From NCBI GenBank assembly GCA_024280155.1, contig JAJRQQ010000106.1:1-64000 (forward strand): a DNA stretch of 64,000 nt, read 5' to 3'. Numbering within the stretch: position 1 is the stretch's first letter; the number at the start of each line of letters is the position of its first letter. Below the pieces are notes generated by a model. It saw nothing but the letters and a program-made list of their open reading frames with translations, did no database searches and was not told the origin of the DNA. The position numbers and the translations under genes are program-made. This document shows positions 22,070 through 54,613 of this stretch, piece by piece. This DNA is from Bacteroidota bacterium. GTDB lineage: Bacteria > Bacteroidota > Bacteroidia > Flavobacteriales_D > Crocinitomicaceae.

Positions 22070-24430
22070 TTATCCTGAACACATTTCACAGTCATCCCCA
22101 TTGTCGATAGAGCATTGTGCTGCTTCTTCGGCTTCAACCAATGATTTTGCTGTTGGTTCTTGTATCGCAGATTTATCAATTGTAAACTTAATTGCATCGG
22201 TTGCAGCTTTTGTTCTCAAGTAATACATTCCTGTTTTTAATCCTTTTTCCCAACCATAAAAATGCATTGAAGTTAATTTAGCAAAGTTTGCATTTTGCAT
22301 AAAGATATTCAATGATTGTGATTGGCAAATGTATGCTCCACGGTCAGCAGCTTGTTCAATGATTGCTTTTTGAGAAATTTCCCAAGCTGTTTTGTATAAG
22401 TCTTTAATTCTTTGTGGAATTACATTGATGTCTTGAATAGACCCATTGTCTGCCATAATTTGTTGGCGAACCTCATGGTTCCATAAATTTTCTTTCACCA
22501 AATCTTTCAATAAATGTTTGTTCACAATGATGAATTCTCCCGAAAGAACTCTTCTTGTATAAACATTTCATGTATACGGTTCAAAACACTCATTATTACC
22601 TAAAATTTGAGCAGTAGAAGCTGTTGGCATAGGCGCTAACAATAAAGAGTTACGAACACCATGTTCTTTCACTTCTTCTTTCAACACATCCCATTCCCAA
22701 CGACTGGTTGGTGTAACACCCCACATATCAAACTGAAAAACACCTTTAGAAACTGGGGATCCTTCAATCGATTCGTAAGGTCCTTCCACTTTCGCTAAGT
22801 CTTTAGACGCAGTCATTGAAGCGTAGTACATCGTTTCGAAAATCTCTCTATTCAATGCTTTTGCTTCTTCCGATTCAAAAGGCATTCCTAAAAGGATGAA
22901 TGTATCTGCTAAACCTTGAACACCTAATCCAATTGGACGATGACGCATATTTGAGTTTCGAGCTTCTTCTACAGGGTAATAGTTTCCGTCGATGATTCTA
23001 TTCAAATTCAATGTTGCTTGATACGTTACTTCGAACAATTTATCGTGGTCAAATGTTTTTTCTGCTGTAATGTATTTTGGCAAAGCTAAAGAAGCTAGGT
23101 TACACACGGCAATCTCATCTGGAGCAGTATATTCAATAATTTCTGTACACAAGTTAGATGATTTGATTACACCTAAATTTTGTTGGTTAGATTTAGCATT
23201 TGCCGCATCTTTATACATCATATATGGAGTTCCTGTTTCAATTTGAGATTCAAGAATTTTAAACCATAAATCTTGTGCTTTAATTGTTTTACGGCCTTTT
23301 CCTTCATTCTCATACTTTGTATACAAAGCTTCAAACTCTGCACTATGCGTGTCAGAAAGCCCTGGACATTCATGTGGGCACATTAATGTCCAACTTCCAT
23401 TTTCTTTCACACGTTTCATAAATAAATCTGGTATCCAAAGTGCGTAGAATAAATCTCTTGCTCTATTTTCTTCTTTCCCGTGATTTTTCTTTAATTCTAA
23501 GAAATCAAAAACATCCGCATGCCAAGGTTCTATATACATTGCGAAAGAACCTTTACGTTTTCCTCCACCTTGATCTACGTAACGAGCAGTGTCATTAAAA
23601 ACACGTAACATTGGTACAATACCGTTTGATTGACCATTTGTTCCTTTAATGTAAGAACCTTTTGCACGAATATCATGAAGGGCAAGTCCAATACCACCTG
23701 CAGATTGAGAGATTCGGGCACATGATTTCAACGTGTCATAAATTCCTTCAATGCTATCTTCTTTCATTGTTAAAAGAAAACACGAAGACATTTGTGGTTT
23801 AGGTGTTCCAGAATTAAATAAAGTTGGTGTAGCGTGTGTAAACCACCCTTCAGACATTAAATTATATGTTTTTATCGCAGAATCAACATCATTCTTGTGA
23901 ATTCCTAAAGAAACACGCATTAACATTTGCTGTGGACGTTCAGCAATAATGTTATTTAATTTTAATAAGTAAGAACGAGTTAATGTTTTGAAACCAAAGT
24001 AATCGTATCTAAAATCTCTATCGTATATGATGCTTGAATCAATTTTTTCTTTGTTGTCTTGAATAATTTGATACACTTCTTCTGATAAAAGAGCGGCATT
24101 TTCCCCTGTTTTAGGGTCAATGTAGTTGTATAAATCTGACATTACATCAGAAAACGTTTTTTTCGTTTCTTTATGTAAGTTAGATACAGCAATTCTTGAA
24201 GCAAGTAAAGCATAATCTGGGTGGTCAATTGTTTTTGCAGCTGCAACTTCTGCTGCTAGATTATCTAACTGAGTAGTTGTTACACCGTCAAATAACCCTT
24301 CTATTACTTTCATTGCAACAGATTCTGGTGAGACTAATGGGTCTAATCCGTAACACATCTTCACGATGCGTGCTGTAATTTTATCAAATTTTACTGCTTC
24401 TTTTCTTCCGTCTCTTTTCTCTACGTACAT
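22070..24430 (-). pseudogene. nrdA: Ribonucleoside-diphosphate reductase alpha subunit interrupted by in-frame TGA at 22568-22570
   Basis: ATP cone [18 protein letters not shown]; ...[48 protein letters not shown]... continues in the same frame to CEMCSG*; total 787 codons. Confidence 0.93.
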
Positions 24431-24464: not shown

Positions 24465-25433
24465 TTAAAAATCTTCGTCCATTGTAAACGTGGTGTTACC
24501 ATCGTTGTTTAGAACACCTGCTTTTTGGTATTCACCTACTCTTTTTTCAAAGAAGTTTGTTTTTCCTTGCAGGTTGATCATATCCATAAAATCAAATGGA
24601 TTTGTTGCGTTATATACTTTCGGATTACCTAATTCTGTTAACAATCGATCGGCAACAAATTCGATGTATTGTGACATTAAATCTGCATTCATTCCGATCA
24701 AACGAACCGGTAATGATTCTAAAATAAATTCTTTTTCAATATCAACTGCAACAGTAATTATTTCTTGCACTTTTTCTTTCGACAGTTTATTCACCAAGTG
24801 ATTATTGTAAAGAAGAACTGCAAATTCCATATGCATTCCTTCATCACGAGAAATTAATTCATTTGAGAATGTTAAACCAGGCATTAATCCTCTTTTTTTC
24901 AACCAGAATATTGAACAAAAAGAACCAGAAAAGAAAATTCCTTCAACCGCTGCAAAGGCAACCAAACGTTCTGCAAAATTTCCATTGTCAATCCAGTTTA
25001 AAGCCCAGTCTGCTTTTTTCTTTACGGGTGGGAATGTTTCTAACGCATTAAATAAATAGTCTTTCCTTTTATCGTCTTTGATGTAAGTGTCAATCAATAA
25101 AGAATACGTTTCAGAATGAATGTTTTCCATCATAATTTGGAATCCATAGAAAAACTTAGCTTCGGTATATTGTACTTCTTTTATAAAGTTTTCTGCTAAA
25201 TTCTCATTTACAATTCCGTCAGACGCTGCGAAAAATGCAAGGATATGCTCAATAAAAAATCGCTCATTATCGTTTAATTTTTCTGTCCAATCATAAACAT
25301 CTTGAGAAAGGTCTAATTCTTCGGCTGTCCAAATAGAAGCTTCTTGCGTTTTGTATGCTTTCCAAATGTCATCGTGTTGAATTGGGAACAGTACAAATCT
25401 GTTTTTATTTGGTTTTAATATTGGTTCTTCCAT
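24465..25433 (-). CDS. nrdB: Ribonucleoside-diphosphate reductase beta subunit
   Basis: [24 protein letters not shown]...[26 protein letters not shown]...[17 protein letters not shown]. Confidence 0.96.
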
Positions 25434-34288: not shown

Positions 34289-35659
34289 TTACTTTCCAAT
34301 ACAAAATTTACTAAAAATGTTTCCCAGTAAATCATCTGTTGATATATCACCTGTAATCGTTCCTAATTCATACATTGCTTGTCGGATATCCATCGCTATA
34401 AAATCTGCGGTGATACCTGTTTCAAGTCCGTGTTTTGTTTTTTCTAATGCAGAAATTGTCTTAATCAGTGCATCGTAATGTCTGGCGTTTGAAACAATTA
34501 CATCATCAGAATTCAGTTGATCTGCATCAATTGTTTTTAGAAGTCTTTCCTTTAAATCATCTAAACTATCCTTGTGTTTTGCCGAAATATAAACCATTTC
34601 CAACCCACTATCTTTGAGTACTTTTAAACTCTTTTCATCCAATAAATCTGTTTTATTTGCTACAATTATTTGCGAAATATCACTCGGGAATTGTTCTAAA
34701 TCTTTCTTAATCTCATCCAAAGTTAGTTTTGATGCATCGAATAAATAAAGGTAAACCGCAGATTCATCCACTTGCTTCAACGCTCTTTCAACACCAAGTT
34801 TTTCAATATAATCTTCTGTTTCTCTCAAACCAGCAGTATCTACAAATCGAAAATCAATTCCTTCAATGATGATTCTTTCTTCAATTGTATCTCTTGTTGT
34901 TCCTGCAATATCCGAAACAATGGCTCTTTCTTCATTTAATAAAGCATTCAATAAAGTCGATTTTCCTGCATTCGGTTGACCAACAATCGCCACTGGAACA
35001 CCGTTTTTTATAGCATTACCCAACTCAAATGACTTCGCTAATTTTCGAATGTACTCTAAAACATTATTCACCAAATCATTCAATTCAGTTCGGTCTGCAA
35101 ACTCAACATCTTCCTCTGCAAAATCCAATTCTAACTCAACTAATGATGCAAAATGAATCAATTTTTCTCTTAAATCTTTCAGTTCAGAACTAAATCCACC
35201 CCTCATTTGTTTCATCGCAATATGATGCGCACTATTCGATTGAGAGGCAATTAAGTCTGCTACAGCTTCAGCTTGAGAAAGATCCATTTTACCATTCAAG
35301 AAAGCACGTTGTGTAAACTCTCCTGGATTTGCTAAACGACAACCATTCTCTAACAATAGTGTTAAAACTTTTTGAAGAATATATGATGAACCATGGCAAG
35401 AAATTTCGACACTTTCTTCCCCTGTAAAACTTTTTCCTTGTTCAAAAACATTGACAAGAACCTCATCAATTAATTCTCCTTCATTCTTTATCGTTCCAAA
35501 GTGAGCAGTATGCGTTTTAGCAGACAAGAGATTCTTTGAAAAAATTTTAGACGTGATATTGAAAGAATTGCTTCCCGAAAGACGTATCATTCCAATCGCA
35601 CCCACTCCATTTGGCGTTGCAAGAGCACAAATTGTATCGTTTATTGTTAAATTATTCAT
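34289..35659 (-). CDS. mnmE: tRNA modification GTPase MnmE
   Basis: DTICALATPNGVGAIGMIRLSG; GQPNAGKSTLLNALLNEERAIVSDIAGTTRD; C-term LLGNIFSKFCIGK. Confidence 0.98.
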   Translation of the reverse strand: MNNLTINDTICALATPNGVGAIGMIRLSGSNSFNITSKIFSKNLLSAKTHTAHFGTIKNEGELIDEVLVNVFEQGKSFTGEESVEISCHGSSYILQKVLTLLLENGCRLANPGEFTQRAFLNGKMDLSQAEAVADLIASQSNSAHHIAMKQMRGGFSSELKDLREKLIHFASLVELELDFAEEDVEFADRTELNDLVNNVLEYIRKLAKSFELGNAIKNGVPVAIVGQPNAGKSTLLNALLNEERAIVSDIAGTTRDTIEERIIIEGIDFRFVDTAGLRETEDYIEKLGVERALKQVDESAVYLYLFDASKLTLDEIKKDLEQFPSDISQIIVANKTDLLDEKSLKVLKDSGLEMVYISAKHKDSLDDLKERLLKTIDADQLNSDDVIVSNARHYDALIKTISALEKTKHGLETGITADFIAMDIRQAMYELGTITGDISTDDLLGNIFSKFCIGK

Positions 35660-51241: not shown

Positions 51242-54200
51242 CTATAATACCCTGTTAAAATACTGGTTCGCTTTATCCTTATAATACTTTCTATAAGAAG
51301 GATCGATCGATTTCAACAATTCAATTTGTTTTAATTTTTTCTTATTGTACTCTAAAAATTGAATTTGGTTACTATTATTTTCATTATTTCCTGATTTAGA
51401 TTCTCTTTTCTAATCTAAACCACGTTCATTGATCGCTTTTTCACTTTCTAAAAGGCGAGTAAGGATGCGTTGTTGACGCTCAACCATTTGAGAACCAGTA
51501 CGTTTGTTAATTAAATCTTTTTCTTGTTGCTCAAGCTCTTTAATTAATGGGTTTAATTGATTGCCTGAACCTTTACCGTCTTTATTTAACTCATTCCGCA
51601 ATTCTTCAAGACGTTTACGTATCATGGATTGCTGAGCAGCCATTTTTGAAATTTGTTTATTGCCCATCCCTAATTGTCCTTGACCTTGACCTGGTTTTGC
51701 TCCCTGTCCTTTGCCTTCTTTATCTCCAGGTTTTTTTCCTCCTTTATTTGGACCTTTTTTCATGGCGTCCAATTGTTCTTTTAACATTTTTTTCATGTCC
51801 TGAGTAGATGGTTTACCAGCACCGGGTTTCGGTTTTCCTTTACCACCAGGTTTAGAACAATTCCCAGAACCCTCTTTCATGTTTTTCATTTGTGCTTGCA
51901 TTTGCTGTAGACTTTCGTCTAGCATTAATGCAAGATTGTTAAAAGATGTCATAACATATTGTTGATGTATTTGAAGTTCTTTACGTCTTCGTTCATCAAT
52001 GTCTTCGATGATAATTTTTTGGTTCGTTTGTATTTTATTCAGTTCTTCATCTATGAAAGAAGCAATCATTGGTTGCCTTTGAGCTAAAGCATATAAACTG
52101 TCACGAACAACTTTAGTGTCATCAATAATGCTCCTTTGATTTCTTGTTTCTCTTCTGTATGCTGGATCTGTTTCTTGAAGACGGTACAATTGGTTCATGT
52201 TATTCTCTTGCGAGAAACTAAGGTTCAAAAGATTCTCTAAAATACTACGAAGAAGTTCAATGTCTTCACCTTGTTGCTCCTGATTAGATTGTTGTTGTTG
52301 ACGGTCTAATTCAGCAGCCATTTCCTCCATCTTTTCAGCAGCTCCTTTTTGATTCTCAGAAGCTTTTTGACCTTTATTTTTTTCCAATTTTTCTATAGAG
52401 TCATTAAGTTCTTCATCAATTTCTTTTTGTTTTTCTTCTTGCTTATCGATATCAAGTGGTTGATTTAAATCCTTGTTTAAACTATCTAAATCATTCATAT
52501 CTTTTTTAATGTCCTCGAATTTCTTATTAATTTCGTCTTGTTTTTTTACATCTTCAGGAGAAATATTTTTCTTATTCTCCGTTTTATTTTTCAATTCTTT
52601 TTGCTCTTTTGCTAATTCTTTTAATTAATTTTCAATCTCATCAATCTTTTCGTTCACCTGGAGTTTCTTAAGCATTTCCATGGTTCTATCCAATTGTTTT
52701 TTCATATCTTCCGAAGACATTTCCAATTCATCGAATTTCTCATCCATTTTATCCTTATTCTGCTCTTGCATCAATTTTTCTAATTCATCAAGAAGATCTT
52801 TTAACTCATCGTCCATTAATTCTTCCAACAGATTATTTATTAACTCCTGTTGTTCTAAAATCTCCTTATCCAATTCCGATAATTGATGTTTTTCCTCTAT
52901 ACTTTGTTGCATATTCTCTTGCATCTTTTGGAGGTTCTCAATGAGATTCTTTTGTTCTTCTTTTAACTGGTTAACTTGTTGTTGTTTTTGCCAAGAAGAC
53001 TCCTTAGAATCCATCGCCTCTTTTCTTAGACGATCTAAATCTTTTTTAAATTTTTCAGCTTGTTTCATTAATGCAAACATATCTTCACGCGTTTCTGAAC
53101 GATTTTCTTCACGTATTTCATTCAGGTCATTTAAAGATGGTAAATGATAAGAGAACATTCTGCTCTTCGTCTTCTTTGATCCATTGACTCCATCATTATC
53201 AAAAACCAAGAAATAATAGGAAATTTTATCCTTGAGTTGAAGTTGTTCTTTTCTAAAATCGACAGCAAAATCAAAAGAAGATTCTGTACCAGAAAGCGAA
53301 CCAACATTTATTTTTTTTGTGCGAATATCTCCTTTTTCAGAAGTGATGGAATAAACAAAGAGTAAAGAAGTCAACCCATAATCATCACTTGTTTTACCCG
53401 TAAAAAACCGTACACCATTTTTTAAAGTATCTTTTTCTTCAATTACTTGAATGTGCGGGAACTCATCTTTGATTACATCAATATTAAAGAAATTAGAATC
53501 GACTTTTGAAGTAGTTGAATTATGCAAAGAAATTAACCCTTGTGCATTATCTATAAGTACGGTTGAAAATGAAAAACCTGTTGTATTGAATGACTTCACA
53601 TTTTTATTCAATTGAAAATCAACACGTTTAGTGTTTTTTGTAGAAATGTTCCATGTAATTTCACTTCCTTCATAAACCGTTAAATCACTTGCATTATCTA
53701 TCGTTTCACTTTCAAGTCCAAGATAAGCTGGATAATTAAGTTTGGCTTGTATACGAGTAATTGAAGCTTTAGAAAGTACATGAACAGAAAAATTTTGACT
53801 TTCAAAATTGTTGGCTTCAAAATGGAAAATTAACTCTTTTCTAACTTGCACTATTGAACCTTTAAAAGTGTTTTTAGTAACTTTAGTAAGAATAAATCTA
53901 CCACGTTCTGATTCTATAAAAACTTTCTTAGGTAAATCATCTCCTAATAATTCTAAAGTAAAATTATAATTATCTCCTTCTTCAATTTCTGGTGTGAGTG
54001 AAATTAAATTAAAGGTAAAAGGTGGTGGAATTTTAAATTCAGTCGAAAAATTAACAACGCGTTCTGTTCCTTGAGTGATAACGCCGGGTTTGAAAATGCC
54101 GAGTGCAATGAGAAATAAAAAGATAGGCAGTAACCAAGAAAAGTATTTCTTATTATTCTCTTTTATATTAATCGAATCAGCAAAAGGTATGCTACCCATC

Positions 54201-54613
54201 GAAGAACTTCTTTGTTGTACACTAGCATTCAATAATTCATAATCTGCAGAATTTTCATCCATTTGATCACTCAACTGAAGTGTATTTAACAGTCTATCTG
54301 AAATGTTTGGAAAATACTTTCCAATAATATTTGAAGCCTGATAACGATTGATTCTTTCTCCAAAAGAGTTTAAACGTAATACTGGAATGAGAATGTATTT
54401 GTAAAAAACGATACCGTTCCCAAGTAGGAAACTGAAGAATAAAACAGCTCGTACATACGAATTAAAACGACCAAGAAATTCTAAAGAAATCACCAAAAGA
54501 AAGGAAAAAAGAAAAATACCTAGAAACAGCAAAAGTCCTTTTACAATTTGGTTTTTGTAAAATTTTCGAATAAACGAATCAATTTGAGACAATAAAAGGT
54601 CGTACGAACTCAT
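51242..54613 (-). pseudogene. DUF4175-like coiled-coil protein interrupted by in-frame TAA (52625-52627) and TAG (51410-51412)
   Basis: One continuous frame of 1124 codons: ...NEKIDEIEN*LKELAKEQKELKNKTENKKN... and ...SEKAINERGLD*KRESKSGNNENNSNQIQFLEYNKKKLKQIELLKSIDPSYRKYYKDKANQYFNRVL*. Confidence 0.8.

Follow-up and report, generated by a model that had tools for sequence, protein, structure and literature searches.

The nrdA gene of this Bacteroidota bacterium, encoding the large subunit of a class I ribonucleotide reductase (RNR), is interrupted by an in-frame TGA codon, and the question is whether this stop belongs to the living organism or only to its assembled sequence. The window analysed here is a stretch of 64,000 nucleotides that forms part of contig C114 in a genome of 2.86 Mb (114 contigs, 88.8% complete, 3.6% contamination), whose closest named records are metagenome-assembled genomes of Fluviicola and Crocinitomicaceae. 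The features at the locus are the following.

22070..24430, minus strand: nrdA, large subunit of class I ribonucleotide reductase, 786 codons, interrupted by a single stop
22568..22570, minus strand: in-frame TGA at a Ser codon conserved among relatives, from translation and alignment
24465..25433, minus strand: nrdB, small subunit of the class I enzyme, 322 aa, intact

Translated on the minus strand, the nrdA frame runs for 620 codons to the TGA at 22570-22568, which the coordinates 22565-22573 given in a preliminary description of this DNA correctly bracket, and continues for 165 codons to a tail ending in ...DDCEMCSG and a natural stop, as that description had stated in calling the frame intact to CEMCSG. 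Both parts match TIGR02506 in a profile search. The gene resembles Crocinitomicaceae class I NrdA (TIGR02506 NrdE_NrdA) in its tail, in its nrdB neighbour and in its full-length identity, which is 94% over 786 residues to the intact sister genes; it differs from those intact genes in its one interior TGA. A comparison with sister genomes, which had been proposed earlier, finds a Ser codon and no TGA in either sister (TCA in G014, TCG in G031). The 112 rows of the wider alignment carry Ser (106), Thr (3), Ala (1) or TGA (2) at this codon, the two TGA rows being the same locus fetched twice and a few genomes possibly being counted double. A sense codon, nearly always Ser, is thus present in 110/110 relative sequences, and the earlier expectation of a conserved Ser is borne out. 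All 30 of the flanking residues compared are identical to the sister (30/30), so only this one codon is affected and the frame has not been misread, and translation and the sister codons together rule out a wrong gene as well. Apart from the TGA, nrdA is fully conserved, and no further decay was seen in either nrdA or nrdB.

A search for nrdA in 99 genomes, including the present one, gave a match in 97, and the only other interior stop is in G007 (G007:C15; L031, L131), a congeneric genome that is 98% complete and has an in-frame TAA where its relatives have Gln; the searches of G007 yielded no further RNR of class I, II or III. A TAA reported as interior in the nrdA of G028 proved to be the natural gene end. 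The NrdA proteins of three relatives lack the C-terminal Cys pair (L023 in G026, L032 in G021 and L130 in G028), with tails such as ...TIVDENNEQ in place of ...DDCEMCSG, and in G021 and G026 this is the only RNR large subunit found. In five genomes of the same order (G075, G081, G087, G092 and G096), the NrdA frame is about 860-890 aa long and the match ends near residue 762, a sign that the C-terminal extension may differ.

The nrdA stop is most probably a consensus error in a draft genome with an unusual density of small errors, a reading that draws on comparison of the sequence with its relatives. The preliminary description, which had listed a sequencing or assembly error among its options, treated the TGA as peculiar to nrdA and overlooked two more stops in the window, at 52627 and 51412, both in one other gene.

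51245..54613, minus strand: DUF4175-like gene, about 1,120 codons, two interior stops
52625..52627, minus strand: in-frame TAA in the DUF4175-like gene, Glu in six relatives
51410..51412, minus strand: in-frame TAG in the DUF4175-like gene, Glu in relatives, Asp in G031

A sample of 730,597 bases, about a quarter of the genome, was scanned for coding frames running across a stop, and the candidates were checked against orthologues in sister genomes. At least eleven interior stops were confirmed, each against orthologues with a sense codon, and this number is a lower bound.

Glu to TAA or TAG: uvrB, uvrA, a quinone oxidoreductase, a CHU_C surface protein and the DUF4175-like gene (twice)
Leu to TGA: TsaB, a carboxyltransferase, an epimerase-like protein and an Omp28-type protein
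Ser to TGA: nrdA

An identical scan of other genomes of the genus, covering about 1.1 Mb and used as a control, yielded about one plausible case. That case, near 5581 in L163 (G021:C3), is a TAG that probably lies inside the gene of a secreted protein. Further candidates (at 34291 in the window, pairs in L123, at 14114 and 14300 in L177, in L199 and in L234) were set aside as natural ends of genes, pairs within operons or frames on the antisense strand; a stop at 13251 in L182 had no match among the relatives searched and is excluded from the count.

Frameshifts are in excess as well, with about five sites in 110 kb of homology-covered sequence as against about three or four in 395 kb of the controls, so that both kinds of lesion are more frequent here than in the relatives. 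Several of the shifts sit at A runs, including one at the start of the gene for release factor RF2.

L121, about 1440-1510 (G000:C41): start of prfB, frame broken after 12 codons

Here the A run is one base short, and eight relatives have a single open frame; the shift may be an error, with a slippage site as the less likely alternative. A junction at 11674 in L220 may represent two overlapping genes and not a frameshift. Given so many interior stops and frameshifts in unrelated genes of one genome, a sequence error is strongly favoured for nrdA.

The base changes behind the stops also have a spectrum unlike that of natural mutation. Ten of the eleven require G>T or T>G, the remaining one (nrdA) requires C>G, and there are no transitions among the eleven. 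On the genome's codon usage and at equal rates, G>T and T>G together account for 34% of the opportunities, and ten or more out of eleven has a P of about 1.5e-4 in a test that was chosen after the data had been seen; the value is still smaller if transitions are favoured, as they are in natural mutation. No C>A stops were found, though some are expected from a strand-symmetric error, and this lack is not significant (6/6, P 0.13). Private amino-acid changes at conserved sites show no clear rise, in what is a weak test at the implied error rate. A study of the Illumina MiSeq platform reports that A and C are read by one laser and G and T by the other, and that A/C swaps and G-to-T changes are common errors (PMC4381044).

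An error-rich consensus is preferred because one cause accounts for all of the lesions, which would then have originated in sequencing or assembly and not in the cell. A wrong base would have entered the assembled sequence at the nrdA Ser codon, and the living organism would probably have the normal Ser codon and make full-length NrdA. The counterpoint is that the nrdA change is the sole event outside the G/T pattern. The picture is otherwise like that of spurious pseudogenes caused by consensus errors in draft (metagenome-assembled) genomes, in that single-base stops and homopolymer shifts are scattered through otherwise conserved genes of one assembly and are absent in the sisters, and it departs from them in its strong G/T skew among the stops. 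A search of the literature on premature stops in such genomes gave no hits for the terms used.

The chief rival is a genuine, recent nonsense mutation in an nrdA that is dispensable in this strain, and its standing comes from the second RNR gene that the preliminary description had raised as an option and that was found on contig C20.

L123:9722-12343 (G000 contig C20): nrdJ, intact class II, adjoining parAB

The NrdJ protein, a B12-dependent class II enzyme of 873 aa, scores above the cut-off for TIGR02504 and has no interior stop. Contig C20 bears core genes, and parA and parB are among its chromosomal genes; the ParA encoded there, a single-copy protein, is nearest to the same two sisters as NrdA; NrdJ therefore very probably belongs to this organism, and a contaminant contig was judged an unlikely source. 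A comparable NrdJ is present in two of the 34 genomes of the genus, the other being G028, and the sister G031 has none genome-wide although its parA neighbourhood is otherwise similar, a distribution that suggests a recent gain. No class III RNR was found in the present genome, and when the window and the nrdJ locus were scanned with Rfam, the only hit was one tRNA, with no cobalamin riboswitch. With NrdJ intact and presumably able to supply deoxynucleotides, a true loss of NrdA could be survivable, and the earlier characterization of nrdA as normally essential is too strong for this genome. This possibility, together with the departure of the nrdA change from the G/T pattern, is what makes a genuine mutation the foremost competitor, yet it is an unlikely one. 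Ten of the eleven confirmed stops lie outside nrdA, so the lesions are not confined to a redundant gene, and genes without a known stand-in, such as tsaB, are struck in the same way, so that the nrdA stop can be explained without redundancy. Nor do nrdA and nrdB show any other decay.

A mutator lineage or decaying genome, in which faulty repair of oxidative damage produces G>T and T>G changes and broken genes accumulate, would place the lesions in the cell. The skew (10/11) resembles the pattern of 8-oxoguanine mutagenesis, and uvrA and uvrB are among the genes struck. Against this, a gene of the MutY family is present and free of interior stops, the broken genes are conserved over the rest of their length, and a cell would have difficulty surviving the lesions in tsaB and prfB, which together make such a lineage improbable. 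A broader version, in which the stops and shifts are real, the cell tolerates pervasive nonsense through leaky termination or a G/T-biased mutator, and NrdJ has replaced NrdAB, is similarly improbable.

Readthrough, suppression or an altered code could in principle yield full-length NrdA from the TGA, and the conserved frame beyond it would be in keeping with this, but the idea is very improbable. No tRNA-Sec was found above the cut-off, the best match being an ordinary tRNA-Ser, in a genome whose 88.8% completeness means that absence is no proof; the same limit applies to the tRNAs found, among which a search of the kind proposed earlier for a UCA anticodon turned up no stop-reading anticodon of any sort. 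Both release factors, RF1 and RF2, have their motifs. Among 49 gene ends listed by hand in the window, TAA (38) is the main terminator and TAG (6) and TGA (4) are minor, with one end misplaced in the list. No stop codon is tied to one amino acid, as TGA falls on Ser and Leu, and TAA and TAG fall on Glu yet also serve as terminators. With no suppressor tRNA found and stops on Glu, Leu and Ser, recoding does not fit, and the preliminary judgement that global TGA recoding is unlikely stands. The base 3' of the nrdA TGA is A, which is not a known leaky context.

A working NrdA split between two proteins is hardly credible: a GTG at 22525, 14 codons past the TGA, could start a second part of 151 aa, but this would lose a conserved 14-residue stretch, and there is no insertion at the locus and no split relative. 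The split RNR genes that have been reported feature inteins, introns, homing endonucleases or separate ORFs (PMC3653736). The nrdA of Aeromonas phage Aeh1, one of the split phage RNR genes, likewise has its reading frame in two parts but is unlike the present gene, where one codon differs and neither an insertion, an intein nor an intervening gene is present.

Taken alone, this locus invites accounts of recoding or of the loss of an essential enzyme, whereas the assembly-wide survey shows its stop to be one of many. Claims of gene loss or recoding should therefore not be drawn from this draft genome without reads, and a count of interior stops set against sister genomes is a cheap and general check to make before a single in-frame stop is interpreted.
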